Origin: Orenia metallireducens
GTDB taxonomy: Bacteria > Bacillota > Halanaerobiia > Halobacteroidales > Halobacteroidaceae
Reading direction: 5' to 3'
Assembly (NCBI RefSeq): GCF_001693735.1
Contig: NZ_LWDV01000009.1
Span: forward strand, 218,825 to 282,824
DNA: 64,000 nt
The translations under genes and the position numbers were made by a program. This document shows, piece by piece, positions 19,795-30,475 of the stretch (the first letter of the stretch is position 1; each line of letters opens with the position of its first letter). The notes below the pieces were generated by a model. That model worked only from the letters and a program-made list of their open reading frames with translations, did not search any database and was not told the origin of the DNA.

Positions 19795-20212
19795 TAATCT
19801 CCCTCCTTGAAAAAATAATATTAATACTATTCTTTCATTAATTAGGCAAACTATTCTTTAAAAGTTAAATTTTAAAGAGATAGCTTTAAATTATAGTCAT
19901 TCAACTTTAGAATATATTATAAAAATAGCTCACTATAGACTACTCAATGTATTAAATTTATTATATAATAAATTATTTAAGTAGCTAAAAGGATAAAATT
20001 TCTTTTTTTTTATCTATTTTTTTGTTATAATAAGTTGTGGTTAGATTTGATTTTATCAGATTTTTTTATTAACATGCAGGATATTTTAAATATCCAGAGA
20101 AATTTTTTAAGAAGAATAAAGTTTCTGCAATTATATTTAATAATTATTTAGCAACTGGGAATAATACAAACATGACAAGGTGATTTTGTATTATTGGGAA
20201 GGGGAAACAGTG
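19795..20212. other. Gene-free divergent region
   Basis: About 420 bases between the - strand prenyltransferase and ispH. Very AT-rich; it must carry two divergent promoters. TTATAAT at about 20023 is a possible -10 for ispH but no good -35 pairs with it. No RNA structure noticed. Confidence 0.5.
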
Positions 20213-22204
20213 ATGGAAGTAATTTTAGCACAGAATGCAGGTTTTTGTTTTGGAGTTAATCGTGCAATGGATTTAGCTCTAGAAATTGGAACAAAAAATA
20301 AGAATTCAGTATACACTTTAGGTCCTTTAATACATAATCCACAAGCAGTCAAAAAATTAAAATCTGTAGGTATCGAGGTAGAAAATGATGTAGATAAAAT
20401 ATCTGAAGGAACAGTAATTATCCGTTCCCATGGGGTTCCTCCTAAGGTACTTGCAGAAGCTGAAGAAAAAGGTTTAAATGTTGTTAATGCAACCTGTCCT
20501 TTTGTGAAACGTGCCCAAGAGAAGGCCAAGGAATTAATGGATAATGGATATGATGTTATTATCAGTGGAGATAAGGATCACCCTGAAGTTATTGCTATTT
20601 GGGGCTATACAGATAATCAAGCAATTATTATTGAGGATGAATCTGATTTTGATAAATTAGATAAACTAAAGAAAGTAGGAGTTGTAGCGCAAACAACTCA
20701 ATCATTAGAGAATTTACAGAAATTGACTAATTATCTATTGCGCCATGTAGCAGAGTTGAAGGTCTATAATACAATCTGTACAACCACAGGAGAGCGACAA
20801 AATGAGGCTGCAGAACTATCTAAACAAGTAGATTTAATGATAGTGATAGGTGGTTATAATAGTGCTAATACCAATCGTTTAGCTGAAATCTGTTCTGAAA
20901 ATGGGGCAATAACATATCATATTGAAAGAGCAGATGAGTTGAAGTTGGATTGGTTTAAAAATATAAAAAAAGTAGGTATTACTGCTGGGGCATCAACCCC
21001 CAACTGGATAATTAAGGAGGTTTTAATGATTATGTCTGAAATCAAAGAGCCAAGAGAAGAGAATTTAGAAGCTAAGATACTAACTAAAGGTGAAATTGTT
21101 AGTGGTCAAGTAGAACAAGTAACAGAAGAAGGTGCTTATGTAAATGTAGGTACTAAAACTGAAGGTTTTATCCCTGCAAATGAAGTAAGTAATGTAGGTA
21201 AGCCTGCTACAGAAGTACTTACTATAGGGGATGAAGTGGAGGTATTTGTTTTAAACCCTGAAGATGAAGAGGGTAAAGCTATCTTATCTAAAAGAAGAGC
21301 AGATAGCCAAAAAGCATGGGAAAAGATCGAAGCCGCTTATGAAAGTGGTGAGATTATAGAAGCAGAAGTAAGTAAAGAGGTAAAAGGTGGTTTAGTTGCT
21401 GATATTGGATTAAGAGGGTTTATTCCTGCTTCCCATATTGCTATCGAATATGTAGAAGATTTGAGCCAATTTGTAGGTCAAACCTTCAAATTAAAGGTTA
21501 TTGAAGTTGAAAAAGAGAACAATAATATTGTTCTTTCACGTAAAGTTGTATTAGAAGAAGAGCTAGCAGAGAAGAAGAAGGAATTATTTGCTTCTTTAGA
21601 AGAGGGTCAAGAGGTTGAAGGTACTGTAACTAAGCTTGTAGATTTTGGAGCCTTTGTTGATTTAGGTGGAGCAGAAGGTCTTTTACATATTTCTGAAATT
21701 TCTTGGGGAAGAATTGATCATCCATCTGATGTTTTAGAAGAAGGTCAAAGTATCAAGGTTAAAGTTTTAGGTGTTAATGCTGAAGAAGGTAGAATCTCTT
21801 TAGGTTTAAAACAGATTCAACCTGATCCATGGGAGGAATTTATTTCAGAGTATAAAGTTGGAGATGTAGTTGAAGGCAAGATTACTAAAACTGTAGACTT
21901 TGGAGCATTTATGGAGATTAAGCCAGGTGTTGAAGGTTTAATTCATATCTCCCAATTATCCCATAAACATATTCCAACAGTAGAGGATGCTGTAAGTGTA
22001 GGAGAGAAAGTAGAAGCTAAAGTTATAAATATTGAAGAAGATGATAGAAGAGTAGGGTTAAGTATTAAAGAATTAACGCCTGCTCCTGAGCCTAAAGCAA
22101 AACCTAAAAAAGAAACAGCATCTAAACCACAATTTAGTACTGATAATGACGAAGGTTCTGGGGTTAAATTAGGTGATGTATTTGGTGACCTATTTGAAAA
22201 TTAA
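20213..22204 (+). CDS. ispH: Fusion: 4-hydroxy-3-methylbut-2-enyl diphosphate reductase (IspH) with four S1 domains
   Basis: 663 aa. Residues 1-280 are IspH, the iron-sulfur enzyme making IPP and DMAPP: AGFCFGVNRA, RSHGVPP, ATCPFV and TAGASTPNW hold the three cluster cysteines and substrate-binding residues. From about residue 300 come four S1 RNA-binding repeats (starts GEIVSGQV, GEIIEAEV, GQEVEGTV, GDVVEGKI), as in ribosomal protein S1; E. coli S1 has six. The fusion is known in Clostridia. ATG 20213 is used; the frame from 20180 lacks a ribosome binding site. The C-terminal tail is lysine- and proline-rich, then acidic. Confidence 0.94.
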   Translation: MEVILAQNAGFCFGVNRAMDLALEIGTKNKNSVYTLGPLIHNPQAVKKLKSVGIEVENDVDKISEGTVIIRSHGVPPKVLAEAEEKGLNVVNATCPFVKRAQEKAKELMDNGYDVIISGDKDHPEVIAIWGYTDNQAIIIEDESDFDKLDKLKKVGVVAQTTQSLENLQKLTNYLLRHVAELKVYNTICTTTGERQNEAAELSKQVDLMIVIGGYNSANTNRLAEICSENGAITYHIERADELKLDWFKNIKKVGITAGASTPNWIIKEVLMIMSEIKEPREENLEAKILTKGEIVSGQVEQVTEEGAYVNVGTKTEGFIPANEVSNVGKPATEVLTIGDEVEVFVLNPEDEEGKAILSKRRADSQKAWEKIEAAYESGEIIEAEVSKEVKGGLVADIGLRGFIPASHIAIEYVEDLSQFVGQTFKLKVIEVEKENNNIVLSRKVVLEEELAEKKKELFASLEEGQEVEGTVTKLVDFGAFVDLGGAEGLLHISEISWGRIDHPSDVLEEGQSIKVKVLGVNAEEGRISLGLKQIQPDPWEEFISEYKVGDVVEGKITKTVDFGAFMEIKPGVEGLIHISQLSHKHIPTVEDAVSVGEKVEAKVINIEEDDRRVGLSIKELTPAPEPKAKPKKETASKPQFSTDNDEGSGVKLGDVFGDLFEN

Positions 22205-22220
22205 TTTAATATAACTGATT

Positions 22221-22262
22221 AAAAAGCCTTGTTTGCAATTAAGCAGATAAGGTTTTTTTAAT
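22221..22262 (+). terminator. Intrinsic terminator after ispH-S1
   Basis: AAAAGCCTT and AAGGTTTTTTT flank a shorter inner GC-AATTAA-GC pairing; a run of seven T follows. The stem is imperfect but well placed. Confidence 0.65.
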
Positions 22263-22562
22263 TTAAAATTATAGGATAATGACGGTTAAAATGGTATGGA
22301 TTAATGGGTATATGCGATATTTTTTAGATAAGTGTGAGTGAATACTCTTTTATTACGGAGTGTTTTTGATTTGGGCTCTGCTATGAAAGGGGTGATCTAT
22401 GACCCCAAAGGTAAAATCTTTAGGTGAGAGAATCTTAGTGACAAGTGACTTACTCTAACAATAAACTGTTGTAATATCTTTCTATAGTCTTAAATTTAAA
22501 ACCTAAACTAATCTCATATCCCTACTTATTGAGCATAAACTTAGAGTAGGGAGGGGAGACGT
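22263..22562 (+). other. Leader region before spmA with a possible tiny ORF
   Basis: 300 bases. At 22399-22458 an ATG after AAAGGGGTGAT opens a 19-codon frame (MTPKVKSLGERIL...) ending TAA. A GGGGT/ACCCC hairpin (about 22391-22407) hides that ribosome binding site and start. This could be a leader peptide, a gene remnant or chance. Not matched to a known riboswitch. Confidence 0.35.
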
Positions 22563-23153
22563 ATGCTAAATAAAATTTGGTTTACTATGATTTGTATTGG
22601 TATAATTATAGCTGCTATTAATGGCAGAATGGAAGAGGTTTCTGTGGCTATTTTAGAGAGTGCAGAAGATAGTGTAATGATAGTAGTTAAGTTAATTGGT
22701 CCTATGGCATTATGGCTAGGGGTAATGAAGGTAGCTGAAAAGGCTCAATTAACTAAGGTTTTAGCAAATTTATTTAAACCTTTAGCTAAGATATTATTTC
22801 CAGAAGTACCTAAAGACCACCCTGCTTTAGCATCGATAATGATGAATTTAAGTGCTAATTTTTTAGGCTTAGGAAATTCTGCAACCCCACTGGGAATTAA
22901 AGCGATGCAGGAATTACAGCAATTGAATAGTGGTAAAAGATCAGCTTCTAATGCTATGTGTACTTTTTTGGTTATTAATACGTCAAGTGTTACTCTGCTT
23001 CCTACTACGATTCTTGCTTTAAGGATAGGAGCAGGTTCTGCTCAGCCAACAGAAATTATAGGTACAACTATCTTTGCTACTTTCTGCTCAACAGTAGTGG
23101 GACTAATCGCCAATAGAATTTTAATCAAAATAAGTGGGTTGAGAGAAATATGA
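22563..23153 (+). CDS. spmA: Spore maturation protein A
   Basis: A 196-aa membrane protein with nucleoside-recognition (gate-like) repeats, needed for proper spore core dehydration in Bacillus. GPMALWLGVMKVAEKA and the motif NLSANFLGLGNSATPLGIKAM near residues 98-118 are characteristic. AGGGAGGGGAG precedes ATG 22563. Its end overlaps the spmB start (ATGA). Confidence 0.93.
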   Translation: MLNKIWFTMICIGIIIAAINGRMEEVSVAILESAEDSVMIVVKLIGPMALWLGVMKVAEKAQLTKVLANLFKPLAKILFPEVPKDHPALASIMMNLSANFLGLGNSATPLGIKAMQELQQLNSGKRSASNAMCTFLVINTSSVTLLPTTILALRIGAGSAQPTEIIGTTIFATFCSTVVGLIANRILIKISGLREI

Positions 23154-23683
23154 TTAATTTTATAAATCACTTCTCCCAATGGGCTATTCCTCTAATAATA
23201 TTTTCAATCTTAATTTCTGCTTTTATCAAGAAAGTTAAGGTCTATGAGGTTTTTACAGATGGTGCTGTAGAGGGGATAGCAGTAGGAGTTAAAATCTTGC
23301 CTTATTTGCTAGCGATGTTAATGGCAATTTCTATCTTTAGAGCTTCTGGAGCTTTAGATATTATATTGAATCTGTTATCTAAGCCTTTAAGTACATTTGG
23401 GATTCCAAAGGAAGTAATCCCTTTAGCCTTAATTAGACCACTTTCTGGAACAGGTTCTTTGGGAGTTGTTACCGATTTAATTAATCAATATGGTCCAGAT
23501 TCATTTATTGGAAGGTTAGCCTCAACTATGCAAGGTAGTACAGAAACCACTTTTTATGTAGCAGCGGTATATTTTGGTGCTATCGGTATTAAGAATAGTC
23601 GTCATGCAATCCTAGCTGGCTTGGTTGCTGACTTGGCAGGATTTTTGGCAGCTGTATTTATTTGTCGATTAGTCTTTGGATAA
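23150..23683 (+). CDS. spmB: Spore maturation protein B
   Basis: A 177-aa membrane partner of SpmA. VYEVFTDGAVEGIAVGVKILPYLLAMLMAI and RPLSGTGSLGVVTDLI, STMQGSTETTFYV are family signatures with about five membrane segments. Translationally coupled to spmA by a 4-base overlap. No clear terminator follows; 144 bases of AT-rich sequence separate it from the PHP gene. Confidence 0.93.
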   Translation: MINFINHFSQWAIPLIIFSILISAFIKKVKVYEVFTDGAVEGIAVGVKILPYLLAMLMAISIFRASGALDIILNLLSKPLSTFGIPKEVIPLALIRPLSGTGSLGVVTDLINQYGPDSFIGRLASTMQGSTETTFYVAAVYFGAIGIKNSRHAILAGLVADLAGFLAAVFICRLVFG

Positions 23684-23827
23684 AAAGAGGATTTTTAACT
23701 ATTAATATTGAATAAGTTATTATGAAATAATATAATGAATAGATGATTATTAATTAAGCTATAATTAGAACTATAAAGATTAAATTATACTAATTAATAT
23801 AAGCTGATATGATAGGAGAGAGAATTG

Positions 23828-24649
23828 ATGGAAGGAAGATATGTAGACTTACATTTGCATACAACAGCATCTGATGGAAGTTATACCCCTACAGAGCTTG
23901 TTAATAAGGCAAGGGATTTAGGCTTTAGTGCTATTGCTATCACAGACCATGATACTGTAGGTGGTATTGAAGAAGGGCTAAAGGTTGCTAAAGAATTAGG
24001 AATTGAGCTAATCCCTGGAATTGAAATGAATACAGATTATGAGAATACAGAAATTCACATCTTAGGTTATTATCTTGACTATCAAAACGAGAAATTTTTA
24101 AATATATTAGCTGATTTAAAGGAAGCTAGATATAATAGAATTAGGAAGATTGTTACCAAACTCAATAATTTGGGTTTGGAGATAGATTTTGATGAGGTTA
24201 GTCAGCTGGCTGATGGCGGTGCTTTAGGTCGCCCTCATATTGCTCAAATTATGTTAAATAAGGGATATGTTAAGAAGTGGAGTCAAGCTTTTGATCAATA
24301 TATTGCAAAAGGTGCTCCAGCTTATGTAGAGAGAAAGAAGATAACTCCTAAGGAAGCTATTGAAATCATTAAGAAAGCAGGAGGGATTCCGGTTATTGCA
24401 CATCCTGCCTTAATGGAAAGGGATGACTTATTAGAGAATTTATTAGAATGGGGGATTGAAGGGATAGAGGTTTATCATACTGAGCATGATCGAGTTGATA
24501 GTCAAAGATATTTAGAGTATGCTAAGGATAATAACTTATTAATAACAGGCGGTTCAGATTGTCATGGGCCAGAACGTAAAGGGGAAATCCTAATTGGTAA
24601 GATTAAAGCTCCTTATGAATTAGTTAATGGTTTGAAGGAAGCTAGATAA
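23828..24649 (+). CDS. PHP-domain metal-dependent phosphoesterase (RNase AM/YciV-like)
   Basis: A 273-aa soluble PHP protein. DLHLHTTASDG at residues 6-16, AITDHDTVGG, PGIEMNTDY, HPALMERDD and GGSDCHGPE supply the trinuclear metal ligands. The layout matches the group that removes 3'-phosphates from nucleoside 3',5'-bisphosphates and trims 5' ends of RNA, rather than the HisK/HisJ histidinol phosphatases, but specificity is inferred. ATG 23828 is preferred to the adjacent TTG 23825. Confidence 0.85.
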   Translation: MEGRYVDLHLHTTASDGSYTPTELVNKARDLGFSAIAITDHDTVGGIEEGLKVAKELGIELIPGIEMNTDYENTEIHILGYYLDYQNEKFLNILADLKEARYNRIRKIVTKLNNLGLEIDFDEVSQLADGGALGRPHIAQIMLNKGYVKKWSQAFDQYIAKGAPAYVERKKITPKEAIEIIKKAGGIPVIAHPALMERDDLLENLLEWGIEGIEVYHTEHDRVDSQRYLEYAKDNNLLITGGSDCHGPERKGEILIGKIKAPYELVNGLKEAR

Positions 24650-25020
24650 GGGTTAAAGGTAGTTAAAGTAGAATTAAAGTGAAGTCTATAGTGGGTTTAT
24701 GTTGTTTTACTGTTACTAGGCAATTGTTATTTCTATCCAACTTAAATTAAATTTTAAGGTTGAGTAACTATACTTTAGAATGTCGATAAAACTCAAAAAT
24801 ATGGTCTTATAAAAGATCATATTTCTCCTAATTTTATCGACAAATTGAAAGATAATATACTATGAACAATTTACGAACCATTAAGGGGAATTTTATTTTG
24901 TAAATAACTGATATTAGTAATAATTAATTTGCTGATAAAAAGGAAGTAATGTCTAAGTGTTATATATTGATACCATAATTGAATTTTATAAAATATAAAG
25001 GATTATAAGGAGGACAAATT
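24650..25020. other. Gene-free stretch with a large nested palindrome
   Basis: 370 bases before the exbB operon. The central feature is the 62-base nested inverted repeat at 24781-24842 (separate entry). No ORF; a promoter for the operon must lie downstream of the palindrome but no clear one was found. Confidence 0.55.
24781..24842. repeat. Nested inverted repeat, possible cruciform or protein-binding site
   Basis: Outer arms TGTCGATAAAA (24781-24791) and TTTTATCGACA (24832-24842) pair perfectly. Inner arms AAATATG and CATATTT, and then TCTT/AAGA, pair around a short loop. No U-tract follows the outer stem, so it is unlike a terminator. Confidence 0.75.
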
Positions 25021-25644
25021 ATGTTGGAGATTTTGAAACAAGGTGGGGTTACAATCATACCTTTATTGTTCTGTTCAGTAGTGAGTTTAGCTGTCACTTT
25101 AGAGCGATTAATTTATTTAAAGAAGGCTAAAGCTAATAACTTTAAATTGATTGAGACAGTAAGACTAAAGTTGACTAAAGGGAAGATTGGTGAAGTAAAA
25201 GGGATTGCAATGAATGCAAAAGGACCAGTAGCAGGAATTTTAGAAGAAGGTATTAAGTATTATGGTCAAAGTAAGAAAGAATTAAGAAGTAACTTAGAAT
25301 TAATTGGGCAGAATGAGATTAAGAAATTGGAAAAGAGATTGGGAGTATTAGATTTAATTGCAACAATATCTCCATTACTAGGATTATTAGGTACAGTATT
25401 GGGGATTATTGATAGCTTTAATATTTTAGCTGGTGCCCAAGGGATGGCAACACCAGCTGCTTTAAGTTCTGGTATCTCTGAAGCCTTAATCAGTACAGCA
25501 GTAGGGTTAGTTGTTGCTATTCCTACTATGTTAGTCTATACTTATCTGTTAGGCTTAGTACAGGATAGAATTGAGGATATCAATTACTGGTTTGTAGATT
25601 TAGTTGAAGCGTTAAGTCAAGGTGATAATAATGTTCAAATCTAA
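25021..25644 (+). CDS. exbB: ExbB/TolQ/MotA-family proton channel protein
   Basis: A 207-aa inner-membrane protein with three predicted membrane segments: near residues 10-30, then about 115-140 and 155-180. The LATISPLLGLLGTVLGIIDSFN block and the GISEALISTAVGLVVAIPTM block are the family core that forms the pentameric channel around ExbD. AAGGAGG precedes ATG 25021. First gene of a six-gene run; it overlaps exbD by 14 bases. TolQ and ExbB cannot be told apart from sequence alone here. Confidence 0.92.
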   Translation: MLEILKQGGVTIIPLLFCSVVSLAVTLERLIYLKKAKANNFKLIETVRLKLTKGKIGEVKGIAMNAKGPVAGILEEGIKYYGQSKKELRSNLELIGQNEIKKLEKRLGVLDLIATISPLLGLLGTVLGIIDSFNILAGAQGMATPAALSSGISEALISTAVGLVVAIPTMLVYTYLLGLVQDRIEDINYWFVDLVEALSQGDNNVQI

Positions 25645-26041
25645 TTTAAAGAAGAGACCTAACATTCAAATCTTACCAATGATTGATGTTATCTTCTTTT
25701 TGCTAGTCTTCTTTATGCTTTTTACAACTTTTAAGACTACTCCAACAGGATTGGAGATTAATCTGCCTAAAGCTAAAACCGTTACTCAGCAGAATGAAGA
25801 TATCAAATTAACCTTAAATATCGCTGAAAATGGTCAAATTTATTTAGATGGAGATCTTATTGATAGTAAGGCTTTGGAATTTGAAGTATCTAAAATCATC
25901 AAAAAATCACCTGATGCTATCTTCATTATCAAAGCTGATAAAGAGGTAAGATATGAGAAAATTATTAATGTAATGGATACAGTTCGTAATGTTGGTGGTT
26001 ATAGATTAGCATTGGCAGCCAATAAAGAGAAATTGGATTAG
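25631..26041 (+). CDS. exbD: ExbD/TolR-family proton channel protein
   Basis: A 136-aa protein with one N-terminal membrane helix. ILPMIDVIFFLLVFFMLFTTF near residues 14-34 contains the key aspartate D19 used in proton coupling. The rest is the periplasmic domain (IYLDGDLI, IIKADKEVRYEKIINVMDTVRNVG). ATG 25631 is used because GTG 25622 is part of the ribosome binding site AAGGTGAT. Confidence 0.92.
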   Translation: MFKSNLKKRPNIQILPMIDVIFFLLVFFMLFTTFKTTPTGLEINLPKAKTVTQQNEDIKLTLNIAENGQIYLDGDLIDSKALEFEVSKIIKKSPDAIFIIKADKEVRYEKIINVMDTVRNVGGYRLALAANKEKLD

Positions 26042-26050
26042 GTGATAATT

Positions 26051-27118
26051 ATGGCATATAAGAAGAAACGACAAGGAGAATTTTCTAGGTTCTTTATTAT
26101 CTCGCTTATTATTCATGGGATTCTCTTGTACATGTTTTCTTTTATTAATCTAGGGGTTCAACCTACTTTCCAAAGTGATCCTATCAATTATACTAGTCAG
26201 TTAGACCTACTCTATTTAGAAGATGGAATTGCTAAAAGTCGAGAATTAGTTGAACATTATCAAGAGGATAGTAAGTCAAAAAAGAAGGAACCAATAGAAG
26301 AGGTTAAGCAGGAGAAAGAGGATAAACTCCCTCAAATAGAAGAAGCTAATGAAGATGTAGCAGAGATCAAAGATCCAAAAGAAGAGCTAATAGAAGAAAA
26401 ACCCAAATTAAAAGAGGTAGCCCAGGCAGAAAAGACTGCTGAAGAAAGGATCATCATAGAAGAGCAGATAGAGGCAGGTAGTGAAGAAAAGGTTGAAGGA
26501 GTAAGTCTAGATAAAGATAATGAAGTTATAGTAGAAGATAAAGTTGAGGAAGATGTAATAGAAGAGCACGTAGAAGTAGTAACTCAAGAGGTTAAAGAAG
26601 AAGTTGAAGAGGTAATAACTAGCCAATCAAGTACTGAAGAGATTAAGGTTGCCCAAAAAAAAGTTGAAGAGAAAGAGAAAGCTCCAGTTAAGCAGGAAGA
26701 AGCAGAGGCAATTACAGAGCAGAAGGTTGTTGAAAATAAAGAGGGTAAAGAAGAGAAGGCAGAGGTCAAGGAAGAAGTTAAAGAAGTACCACCACCTCCA
26801 CCACCTGCACCTAAAGATATGATTCTTAGTAATGTAATTCCTCGATATCCTAAGAATGCTTCTAATACAGGAATTGAAGGGGATGTTAAGTTATTAGTTA
26901 AGGTTAAGGCTAGTGGAGAGATTGATCAAGTAGAAATTATCGAATCCTCTGAATATGAGCAATTAGATAATCAAGCTAAGAGAACAGTACAGTATGGCTG
27001 GAAATTTAAGGCTGATAAATCCAATTATGAAGTAATATTAATGGTTCATTTCCGTTATATTGACCATCAAAATCAAGTTGATGTTGAGTATCTGGGTTTA
27101 TCCTTTGATCAGAAATGA
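26051..27118 (+). CDS. tonB: TonB/TolA-like energy-transducing protein
   Basis: A 355-aa protein: one N-terminal membrane anchor (residues about 14-33), a very long Glu/Lys-rich stretch (about residues 70-240) likely to span the periplasm as an extended rod, a short run VPPPPPPAP, then a TonB C-terminal domain (about 255-330) with PRYPKNASNTGIEGDVKLLVKV split over the usual P-YP-A---G--G-V pattern. The acidic-basic linker recalls TolA more than the proline-rich linker of E. coli TonB. ATG 26051 is the start; GTG 26042 is within the ribosome binding site. Such a protein only makes sense with an outer membrane. Confidence 0.88.
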   Translation: MAYKKKRQGEFSRFFIISLIIHGILLYMFSFINLGVQPTFQSDPINYTSQLDLLYLEDGIAKSRELVEHYQEDSKSKKKEPIEEVKQEKEDKLPQIEEANEDVAEIKDPKEELIEEKPKLKEVAQAEKTAEERIIIEEQIEAGSEEKVEGVSLDKDNEVIVEDKVEEDVIEEHVEVVTQEVKEEVEEVITSQSSTEEIKVAQKKVEEKEKAPVKQEEAEAITEQKVVENKEGKEEKAEVKEEVKEVPPPPPPAPKDMILSNVIPRYPKNASNTGIEGDVKLLVKVKASGEIDQVEIIESSEYEQLDNQAKRTVQYGWKFKADKSNYEVILMVHFRYIDHQNQVDVEYLGLSFDQK

Positions 27119-27129
27119 GGTGTTAGAGG

Positions 27130-29124
27130 ATGAAGAAAAAATTAGGGATAATTTTAATACTACTATTAGCGGTAATATCCTCTAAAGTTAGTGCTAATGT
27201 AGATCAATATGGTAATTTACAGTTAAAGAATGACTATATTTCTGTGATTGTCAACCAAAATGAATTCAATAAAGGTAGATTTGCTGTTGATATTACAGGA
27301 GGAGATCCAATTAGAAGTGGTGATGATGGTAAGCCATTACTTTATGGTCACCCTCACCCTTGGACATCTTATACTACCTTTAGAATAGATGATAAAAACT
27401 ATATCTTTGGTGGTAAGACTGATAAAAGGGCCGGTCGTAGTGGGGAGTATGGAGAGTTAATTCAAGGGCCTACCCTTGATAATAATAAGATTATTACTAA
27501 GTATAAATTTAATAAGATAGTTGTTAGTCAAATTTTAAACTTTGTTAAGAGTAGTACTACAGGATTGCCTGATACATTACAGATAACATATCGGGTTACA
27601 AATGAAGATGATGTAGAGCACCAAATAGGTACAAGGATTATGATTGATACCATGTTAGGTGAGAATGATGGTGCTCCTTTTAGGATTACTAATCAAGCAG
27701 TCACTAGTGATAGTCTATTCTTAAAAGATGAGGTGCCAACCTTCTGGCAGGCCTTTGATGAATTAAGAGATCCAAAGGTGACTGCACAGGGAACGATTAA
27801 AGGTGCTGGGGTGACTACCCCTGATGAGGTTTATTTTGCTGATTGGGGAAGTCTAGCAGATGGTCCTTGGGATTTTGATTTTAAATCTGGAGAAGAATTC
27901 TTACGCAAAGGTGAGTTTGAGCTAGATAGTGCTATGGCATTATTCTGGCAAGAAAGTACTATTAAAGCAGGAGAAACTAAGACCTATGTAACAAATTATG
28001 GTTTAGGGGGTATTACCATTGTACCTGGACTATTATCTTTAGGGGTTACTTCACCTGCACAGGTAGTGATGGATAAACCTAATAAGACTGTAGAGATTGT
28101 GGCTTATATCCAGAATACTGCCGAAATTACAGTAAAGGATGTAAAGGTTGAGTTAGTACTTCCAGAGAACTTAGAACCTATAGATAACTATAAGACCAAA
28201 GAGTTAGGTGATTTAAGTCCAGGACAGACTGCTCAGGTGATGTGGGAAGTTCGTCCTAAAAGGTTATTACAGCAACAGGTAGAGTATACAGTCAAGGCAA
28301 CTGCCAAGAATACTGATGATAACCAAGTAAGTAGAGGGCTAAAATTTGTTGGACCACCTAAGTTATCCTTGCAGTTAACTGCACCTAAAAGGATGGAGGC
28401 TAAGGATGATTCCTTAGTAAAGGATAGCTTCTATATTAAAGGAAAGATATCAAATTATGGAGCATCAACAGCTTATGGAATAGAGAGTACTTTGGCTTTA
28501 CCACCAGGATTAACCTTGAGTAAAGGTGATAAAGAAGAGAAGTTTATAGGATTCTTAGAGCCTAATGAAAGTATCGAATTATCATGGAAGGTTAAGCCTT
28601 TAATTTTAGTTGATGGGAAGTTACCTTATTCAGTAGAGCTAAGTAGTAGTAATGCTCTTAATGAAATATCTAAAAATAGTATCCTAATTCCAAAATTGGA
28701 CCCTAAGGTAAAGATAGAGGTTTTGCCTAAAAAGGGTGGTTATCAAGTTGGTGATTATCTGACTGCTCAAATAAGATTGAAGAATATATCAGACTTCTAT
28801 GGCTTAAAGACTAATATTAGTTACAATAATAAGGTATTAGAAGCCATTTATGTCTCACGAGGAAATCTTTTTATCGATAATGGCAAGTTATTGAGCTGGA
28901 ATCTACCTATAGTTTCTCAACAGGAGGGATTGATTAAAGGAATTTCTGCTTCCTTGGATGGTGAACAGGATATAGAAGATGGTTTAGTAGCCAATCTCCA
29001 TTTTAAGATTAAGTCTTTAGGAAGTTTTGATTTATCTTTTGAAGACTTCCTTGCTTATGATATGAATAATAATCAATTAAAATTGGAGATGGTTAATAAT
29101 CTACTTAATATTAGGAGGAATTAG
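27130..29124 (+). CDS. Secreted protein with CARDB-like repeats and C-terminal cohesin-like domain
   Basis: 664 aa with a signal peptide (cleavage near SKVSANVDQ, residue 22). Residues 25-290 form a beta-rich N-terminal region rich in Gly/Asp with no motif I can name. About 300-400 and 405-510 look like two Ig-like/CARDB repeats (VELVLPENLEP, STLALPPGLTLSKGD). About 525-660 resemble a cohesin fold: VEVLPKKGGYQVGDYLTAQI without the first V, then NISYNNKVLEAI and a late FEDF strand. No sortase signal or membrane anchor, so it probably acts in the periplasm or at the surface. It follows tonB by 11 bases. A role as partner of the TonB complex is inferred only from the operon. Confidence 0.7.
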   Translation: MKKKLGIILILLLAVISSKVSANVDQYGNLQLKNDYISVIVNQNEFNKGRFAVDITGGDPIRSGDDGKPLLYGHPHPWTSYTTFRIDDKNYIFGGKTDKRAGRSGEYGELIQGPTLDNNKIITKYKFNKIVVSQILNFVKSSTTGLPDTLQITYRVTNEDDVEHQIGTRIMIDTMLGENDGAPFRITNQAVTSDSLFLKDEVPTFWQAFDELRDPKVTAQGTIKGAGVTTPDEVYFADWGSLADGPWDFDFKSGEEFLRKGEFELDSAMALFWQESTIKAGETKTYVTNYGLGGITIVPGLLSLGVTSPAQVVMDKPNKTVEIVAYIQNTAEITVKDVKVELVLPENLEPIDNYKTKELGDLSPGQTAQVMWEVRPKRLLQQQVEYTVKATAKNTDDNQVSRGLKFVGPPKLSLQLTAPKRMEAKDDSLVKDSFYIKGKISNYGASTAYGIESTLALPPGLTLSKGDKEEKFIGFLEPNESIELSWKVKPLILVDGKLPYSVELSSSNALNEISKNSILIPKLDPKVKIEVLPKKGGYQVGDYLTAQIRLKNISDFYGLKTNISYNNKVLEAIYVSRGNLFIDNGKLLSWNLPIVSQQEGLIKGISASLDGEQDIEDGLVANLHFKIKSLGSFDLSFEDFLAYDMNNNQLKLEMVNNLLNIRRN

Positions 29125-29125
29125 T

Positions 29126-29794
29126 ATGAACGTACGGAATAGCTTTATTAACTTTATGCTCGTCTTTATTTTTGTGGCTACTGCAGCACTTCCAGCTTTA
29201 GCTAGCACTAAAATTGATGATATCTCAAGTAGCCATTGGGCTTATAAGAGTGTAAAGAAGCTTGTAGAGAAGGGGTATATGTCTTTGTATGAAGACAATA
29301 AATTTAAAGGTGAGAATAAGGTTAGCCGTTATGAACTTGCTAAGGTTATTGCTAAGATTTTAAATAATATCGAACAAGGGCAAGTGGTACCAGAAAAAGG
29401 CGATGTGCTGACATTAAAGAACTTAGCCTCAGAGTTTCGTTCTGAGCTAGTAGAGGTTATCAGTCAGAATGAGGATTTAAAGGGAGAAGTTAAAGAGCTT
29501 GATAAAGAGCAGAAGATTCTTAAAGAAGATATAGTCAACACAAATTATAGAATCAATCAACTGCAACAAGAAGTAGTGAAGATATTGGCTGATTTAAAAG
29601 AAGAAGGTTCAAGAATTGATGAATTAGAAGAGAAGATTGGTTCATTGGAGATAGAGAATCAAATGTTAAAGGAGCAATTAACTAAGTTAGAAGAGGGATC
29701 AGGAAGTCAAGCAGAGATTGAAGGTTTAAAGAGAAGATTTTATTGGTTAACTGGTGGCTGGTTAATCTCTGTATTATTATTGATGAGCAACTAA
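29126..29794 (+). CDS. SLH-domain, coiled-coil protein with C-terminal membrane helix
   Basis: 222 aa with a signal peptide (cleavage near ALASTK). One SLH domain (residues about 30-85: SSHWAYKSVKKLVEKGYM, VSRYELAKVIAKIL) should bind peptidoglycan or its secondary polymer. A long coiled coil (about 105-195) is rich in E/K/L. The last 18 residues (RFYWLTGGWLISVLLLMSN less the R) form a helix able to anchor in a membrane. In diderm Firmicutes SLH-coiled-coil N-termini tether OmpM-type porins to the wall; here the barrel is absent and replaced by a short helix. One base separates it from the previous gene. Confidence 0.8.
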   Translation: MNVRNSFINFMLVFIFVATAALPALASTKIDDISSSHWAYKSVKKLVEKGYMSLYEDNKFKGENKVSRYELAKVIAKILNNIEQGQVVPEKGDVLTLKNLASEFRSELVEVISQNEDLKGEVKELDKEQKILKEDIVNTNYRINQLQQEVVKILADLKEEGSRIDELEEKIGSLEIENQMLKEQLTKLEEGSGSQAEIEGLKRRFYWLTGGWLISVLLLMSN

Positions 29795-29809
29795 AAGGTG
29801 GGGGACAGA

Positions 29810-30421
29810 ATGGAGAGAAAGAGTAGAATTATTTCAATAATTGCATTTACTTTAGTGTTTCTATTAATAAGTCCCTGCTTTACTTCTCTTTTTGCTCCTC
29901 TCTCATATCAGGCTTATGCAGCAGAGATTCAAAGAGAAGATGCTTATAAGGGTTTAGCTTTTACAGTAGTTTTAATCTATATTTTTAATAGAGTTTTTGG
30001 TGATGATAAAGATGTAGCAAGGTCAAATTGGAATATAAGTAGAGAGCCTATGGATTATACTGATGATGAGTTGACTTGGTTAGCAAGAGCAGTTCATGCT
30101 GAAGCTAGAGGAGAGCCTTTTGAGGGGCAAGTAGCTGTAGCGTCAGTTATTCTCAATCGAGTAAGGAGTACTAAATTCCCTAATACAATTTATAGTGTAA
30201 TCCATCAGAAGAACCAATTTAGTTCAGTGGATGATGGACAGATATATCTGCCACCTAATGAATCATCATATAATGCTGCTATAGAAGCTTTTAGAGGTAA
30301 TGATCCAACAGATGGTGCTCTTTACTTCTATAATCCCAAGACTGCTAATCCTATCGGAAGAGCTTGGTTAGAAACTAGAGAAAAGACGGTTCAGATTGGT
30401 AATCATGTCTTTGCTAGATAG
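29810..30421 (+). CDS. SleB/CwlJ-type cell wall hydrolase
   Basis: A 203-aa exported protein. Residues 1-35 hold a long hydrophobic signal or anchor. The hydrolase domain (Hydrolase_2) covers about 80-203: ELTWLARAVHAEARGEP has the catalytic glutamate, followed by VASVILNRV, KNQFSSV and GALYFYNP. It may act in spore-cortex lysis or general peptidoglycan turnover; unlike SleB it has no N-terminal peptidoglycan-binding domain. ATG 29810 follows AAGGTGGGGG. Last gene of the exbB operon, followed by a terminator. Confidence 0.88.
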   Translation: MERKSRIISIIAFTLVFLLISPCFTSLFAPLSYQAYAAEIQREDAYKGLAFTVVLIYIFNRVFGDDKDVARSNWNISREPMDYTDDELTWLARAVHAEARGEPFEGQVAVASVILNRVRSTKFPNTIYSVIHQKNQFSSVDDGQIYLPPNESSYNAAIEAFRGNDPTDGALYFYNPKTANPIGRAWLETREKTVQIGNHVFAR

Positions 30422-30440
30422 AATTAAATATTGGTTTTAA

Positions 30441-30475
30441 AATAAGTCTCGGAAACTCCGAGACTTATTTTTCTT
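30441..30475 (+). terminator. Intrinsic terminator ending the exbB-sleB operon
   Basis: A 13-base stem, AATAAGTCTCGGA / TCCGAGACTTATT, with loop AAC, then TTTCTTT. Confidence 0.9.

Follow-up and report, generated by a model that had tools for sequence, protein, structure and literature searches.

According to a 2025 survey of force-transducer systems, Tol-Pal is confined to Gracilicutes, and Negativicutes are the sole Firmicutes with Ton; the survey anticipated the discovery of further systems (PMC12204202). Earlier, the 2009 genome paper of Halothermothrix orenii had placed ExbB, ExbD, and TonB side by side in a genome lacking receptors, and raised the possibility that they serve another function (PMC2626281). 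Here, we describe an operon that opens with such a trio in Orenia metallireducens (genome of 3.47 Mb), located in a stretch of 64,000 nucleotides that was analyzed as a whole and is referred to below as the window (NZ_LWDV01000009.1, positions 218,825 to 282,824 of the forward strand). H. orenii belongs to the same taxonomic order, so that its trio presumably consists of the same genes. In O. metallireducens, it is followed by genes for an exported beta protein of 664 amino acids (aa), here termed COH664, an SLH coiled-coil protein, and a SleB-type cell-wall hydrolase; the 2009 paper covers neither partner genes nor distribution nor a link to the outer membrane (PMC2626281). We found no description of the operon in the open-access literature searched, subscription papers being outside the search.

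Five of the six genes form a unit whose conservation runs deep and whose occurrence follows that of the outer membrane. We consider it slightly better than an even bet (a probability of roughly 0.52) that these first five genes form a dedicated proton-driven trans-envelope force machine rather than a nutrient uptake system, with outer-membrane stabilization or constriction as its likely role. Gene order, domain make-up, co-occurrence with BamA, separateness from receptor-linked Ton systems, and the absence of TolB, all established by computation, are the results that carry this reading. All six open reading frames lie on the plus strand, with adjacent genes overlapping or 1-15 bases apart; both this tight packing and the closing terminator had been described in a reading of the window made from its letters alone (hereafter, the sequence-only reading), and both were located as follows:

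25021-25644, plus strand: ExbB/TolQ-type motor subunit, 207 aa (Pfam MotA_ExbB, 109 bits)
25631-26041, plus strand: ExbD/TolR-type motor subunit (Pfam ExbD, 110.5 bits); a start at ATG 25631 is likelier than at GTG 25622
26051-27118, plus strand: TonB-type force transducer (Pfam TonB_C, 61.3 bits); start candidates are GTG 26042 or ATG 26051
27130-29124, plus strand: COH664, the 664-aa exported beta protein (Cohesin, 42.1 bits; NPCBM_assoc/NEW3, 34.5 bits)
29126-29794, plus strand: SLH coiled-coil stalk (Pfam SLH, 38.7 bits)
29810-30421, plus strand: SleB-type cell-wall hydrolase, the last gene (Hydrolase_2, 120.8 bits), from an ATG with an alternative start at 29798
30439-30471, plus strand: intrinsic terminator ending the operon (perfect 15-bp stem, 3-nt loop, then a T run)

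The six-gene order is identical in 15 Halanaerobiales-type loci, comprising the window, 12 further genomes from the order, and two metagenome-assembled genomes (MAGs) of Halanaerobiales. Since the same order was seen in every related genome examined, the operon is not a product of chance. Beyond these, the order exbB-exbD-tonB-COH664-SLH protein is found again in about 37 less closely related genomes within the phylum, as read from 38 neighborhoods and one further locus (L119); one distant locus has tonB ahead of exbD, and two are cut by contig ends. In four distant loci, the protein in the tonB position was too divergent for the profile, and its plan of transmembrane segment, linker, and C-terminal domain was found to be kept on inspection. 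The sequence-only reading had proposed looking for the gene order in other Halanaerobiales and diderm Firmicutes, and for five genes it recurs there; it had also staked its case on the last three genes staying next to exbB-exbD-tonB in relatives, which holds for COH664 and the SLH protein and, outside the class, fails for SleB.

The SleB-type gene adjoins the unit only within the class, and in one family it lies ~450 bp behind the SLH gene. We therefore rejected it as a core part: the Hydrolase_2 gene that had been taken for the sixth member of the operon is present, as a lineage-specific neighbor. It scores 157 bits against NCBIfam spore_SleB, for which the cut-off is 236.5. We sought a conserved sixth gene in the other lineages and found none, the downstream genes there being different.

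To follow the unit across the phylum, we searched 199 phylum-wide genomes with a COH664 profile and obtained 57 matches, about 45 of them full length; for two of the 45 COH664 genomes, the gene order could not be read because contigs break there. BamA (PF01103) was detected in 49 of the 199 genomes. Full-length COH664 was present in 45 of the 49 BamA-positive genomes vs. none of the 150 BamA-negative ones (Fisher p 2e-40, a value that overstates the number of independent events, as do all p-values here, since the sampled genomes are mutually related). Given this absence from 150 BamA-negative genomes, the unit goes with the outer membrane and not with the wall alone. A second draw (398 genomes, the COH664 carriers of the first among them) gave 87 genomes with both COH664 and BamA, 15 with only BamA, and 295 with neither; COH664 occurred on its own in a single genome, a MAG that is 91% complete. 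The 15 BamA-only genomes comprise ten of family f33, three of family f63, one 84%-complete MAG, and one with a marginal BamA match. Families f33 and f63 are probably Negativicutes, and those of their genomes that we inspected carry receptor-linked Ton systems. Across 36 genomes, COH664 distances track BamA distances (Mantel r 0.73), the pattern that largely vertical descent together with the outer membrane would produce. The weak or partial COH664 matches in BamA-negative genomes were set aside as N-domain or cohesin matches inside RHS, SLH, or other proteins, and a single flagellin match seems due to chance or composition.

Scored against NCBIfam models, the motor subunits match those of Tol best, at scores under the cut-offs. 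ExbB scores 103 bits against NCBIfam tolQ and 70.7 bits against exbB, both below the cut-offs (221 for tolQ), and tolQ matches all 29 operon members (29/29); ExbD matches tolR best (78 bits, below the cut-off of 127), ahead of exbD. The pore threonines of ExbB are retained in 36 of 37 distant members. Asp19 of ExbD, in the motif PMIDV, is invariant across a 15-member alignment and is expected to be the proton carrier. The TonB-type protein is composed of a transmembrane helix with an S-x3-H motor-binding motif, a Glu/Lys-rich linker, and a TonB_C domain with an extended C-terminal end. Its S18 and H22 are invariant, and the motif is present in 43 of 50 operon TonBs. From the conserved Trp to the C-terminus, operon TonBs have a median of 38 residues, vs. 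27 in receptor-linked TonBs. The long Glu/Lys rod noted in the sequence-only reading is a property of the window TonB that other members do not conserve, their linkers being Pro-, Thr/Pro-, or Gly-rich. In the ExbB tree, operon ExbBs form one clade on one side of a branch (support 84/97), apart from receptor-linked ExbBs, and this separation holds even where a single genome carries both kinds.

COH664 consists of an unassigned N-domain (residues 21-300), two Ig-like NEW3/CARDB domains, and a C-terminal cohesin-like domain. The window copy is 91% identical to the COH664 recorded for Orenia metallireducens, in line with an Orenia-like host within the Halanaerobiales. It has a signal peptide, usually without a lipobox (a lipobox-like motif occurs in 4 of 50 sequences). 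The CARDB/cohesin-like domains proposed for it earlier were recovered as Cohesin and NPCBM_assoc/NEW3 matches, CARDB itself falling below the Pfam cut-off. An AlphaFold2 model built on a 50-sequence alignment reached a mean predicted local distance difference test score (pLDDT) of 90.5 and superseded a first model from 15 sequences (pLDDT 71.8). The predicted fold is a chain of beta-sandwich domains, and a TolB-type propeller was accordingly rejected. The N-domain is by far the best-conserved part: 81 of its 280 positions are at least 90% conserved across the 50 sequences, vs. 3 of 138 in the cohesin part. By sequence it has no Pfam or PDB relative, and a fold search with full-length COH664 returned merely generic chains of Ig-like domains (integrins, with low TM-scores), so the N-domain has no assigned relative. 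COH664-type N-domains were also seen in BamA-negative genomes, at the front of RHS-repeat proteins and as part of a large SLH surface protein (four loci, among them L100 6803-13021).

As the sequence-only reading had stated, the fifth gene encodes an SLH coiled-coil protein with a C-terminal membrane helix: a signal peptide is followed by one SLH repeat and a coiled coil, and the chain ends in a hydrophobic helix. The Pfam SLH match was obtained in 31 of 36 members, and the terminal hydrophobic segment is found in nearly all distant members, whose lengths range from 213 to 907 aa. The position of this helix suggests an inner-membrane tail, which would place the SLH repeat in the periplasm. In six loci (proteins of 649-907 aa), the coiled coil is several-fold longer with both ends unchanged; this length variation suggests that the reach of the stalk may be tuned to envelope thickness. 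Residues W38, Y40, G62, R68, and Y69 are conserved and correspond, by motif and a constant offset of four, to W34, Y36, G58, R64, and Y65 of Veillonella OmpM1, in which polyaminated peptidoglycan was proposed to be bound by the tyrosines and a sugar polymer by the W, G, and R (PMC10628300).

Overall, the best reading is that the operon works like Tol-Pal without being a member of it. The two are alike as multi-gene trans-envelope units that combine a TolQR-like motor with a long transducer, a beta-rich partner that is exported, and a protein that binds the wall, and the operon, too, is kept through most of a diderm group whether or not receptors are present. Unlike Tol-Pal, it has no TolB propeller, Pal lipoprotein, or CpoB; its transducer domain is TonB_C, and the wall is bound by an SLH coiled coil whose membrane helix is C-terminal. 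TolB_N was absent from all 199 genomes, while the Escherichia coli, Caulobacter, and Bacteroides controls were positive (3/3), and Pfam detected no OmpA-like (Pal) domain in the six genes. The role-by-role match to tolQ-tolR-tolA-tolB-pal-cpoB that had been drawn for the operon is an analogy. COH664 is no TolB propeller, and the SLH protein, whose membrane helix is C-terminal and presumably in the inner membrane, is no equivalent of Pal. With the Ton system, the operon shares the motor and transducer families, the TonB_C domain, and the S-x3-H motif; it differs in having no receptor in the unit, its own ExbB clade, a longer TonB C-terminal end, and two extra dedicated partner genes. The OmpM/SLH-OprB porins, the outer-membrane tether of diderm Terrabacteria, resemble the SLH stalk in its OmpM-type SLH residues and coiled coil, and the NCBIfam cyanobacterial SLH porin model por_somb matches stalk residues 29-129 (55.8 bits, below cut-off). 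Unlike these porins, the stalk has no beta-barrel (no porin domain by Pfam) and ends in a hydrophobic helix.

In the surroundings of the operon, an IspH gene with fused S1 domains, a pair of Gate (spmA/spmB-like) genes, and one PHP-domain gene lie upstream (window 20180-24649), in an order kept within the family; spmAB-like genes also lie close to the operon in three distant genomes. An 11-bp inverted repeat (TGTCGATAAAA ... TTTTATCGACA) is located at window 24782-24842, between the PHP gene and exbB. No Rfam elements were found in the operon region.

In the mechanism that we favor, ExbB and ExbD would form an inner-membrane motor, and the TonB-type protein would bind it via its transmembrane helix and span the periplasm. 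Its C-terminal domain would pull a partner located in the periplasm or on the outer-membrane side; the likeliest candidate is COH664 or something that COH664 holds. With its C-terminal helix, the SLH stalk would sit in the inner membrane, and with its OmpM-like SLH repeat it would grip the wall and so hold or position the machine there. The output would likely be stabilization or constriction of the outer membrane, which is Tol-Pal's job where Pal exists. We infer the protein contacts, the stalk topology, and this cellular role; of the lineage-specific system for holding or constricting the envelope that had been proposed from the sequence, the link to the outer membrane is seen in the distribution of the five-gene unit, and constriction belongs to what we infer. 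Several points weigh against such a machine. The transducer domain is of the TonB type, and TonB usually means uptake. The genes neighboring the operon include no division genes. The N-domain of COH664, present in RHS-repeat and SLH surface proteins of genomes without BamA, may be a general extracellular module. Finally, the presumed Negativicutes are diderm yet have no operon, and it is therefore not indispensable for a diderm Firmicute.

The operon could instead serve ordinary Ton uptake through a channel that is encoded elsewhere or has diverged beyond recognition, with COH664 and the SLH stalk as accessory binding or anchoring proteins. The operon does have the ExbB, ExbD, and TonB of a Ton system, with the motor motif and a true TonB-type TonB_C domain, and the receptor plug (PF07715) was detected somewhere in 15 of 45 operon genomes. 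O. metallireducens itself has one TonB-dependent receptor (L031 7814-10740) with a TonB-box-like DEIVVTA, beside a second tonB and a FecCD/ABC-type importer; since this locus has no adjacent exbB or exbD, it may borrow the operon motor. However, a receptor that the operon serves was not found (a divergent receptor or motor sharing being possible): no TonB-dependent receptor lies within the unit, and the plug was undetected in 30 of the 45 genomes, in agreement with the sequence-only argument that simple uptake is disfavored by the lack of an adjoining receptor. Moreover, receptor loci, where present, usually have a second tonB alongside, mostly with its own exbB and exbD on separate branches, whereas COH664 and the SLH stalk accompany the operon motor throughout. 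We thus regard uptake as unlikely.

The motor might also power the export or surface display of COH664 or of S-layer-like material, the SLH stalk fixing the export site at the wall. COH664 is indeed exported and strings together Ig-like and cohesin-like domains, genomes without BamA encode large RHS and SLH surface proteins that contain its N-domain, and secretion is powered by ExbB-family motors in certain systems (SiiAB, mentioned in PMC12204202). Yet the conserved unit has no outer-membrane pore or secretion gene, and its strongest conservation falls in the compact COH664 N-domain, as would suit a working partner better than cargo, making export a distinctly unlikely role. More improbable still is a wall-centered machine, in which the motor would move or tension peptidoglycan or wall polymers, with SleB as its hydrolytic arm, for growth or sporulation. 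The SLH stalk, the SleB-type hydrolase next in line throughout the class, and the spmA/spmB-like genes close upstream would fit it, but SleB is missing from the unit outside the class and set off even in one family (f2), and no BamA-negative relative has full-length COH664.

Returning to the force machine, we tentatively entertain a broader reading, to which we give somewhat less than even odds: the operon could be a third kind of TonB/TolA-type machine, one that functionally replaces Tol-Pal without Pal and has been passed down along with the outer membrane among diderm Firmicutes other than Negativicutes. In it, a new beta-domain protein and an SLH stalk would draw the outer membrane inward or keep it attached to the wall. 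For the question of how diderms without Pal energize, stabilize, and constrict their outer membrane, the operon is a concrete candidate. It is present in nearly all non-Negativicute BamA-positive members of the phylum sampled, would open this question to tests in culturable Halanaerobiales, and is relevant to how Firmicutes kept or lost outer membranes. The operon may be how these diderms exert force on their outer envelope without classical Tol-Pal.

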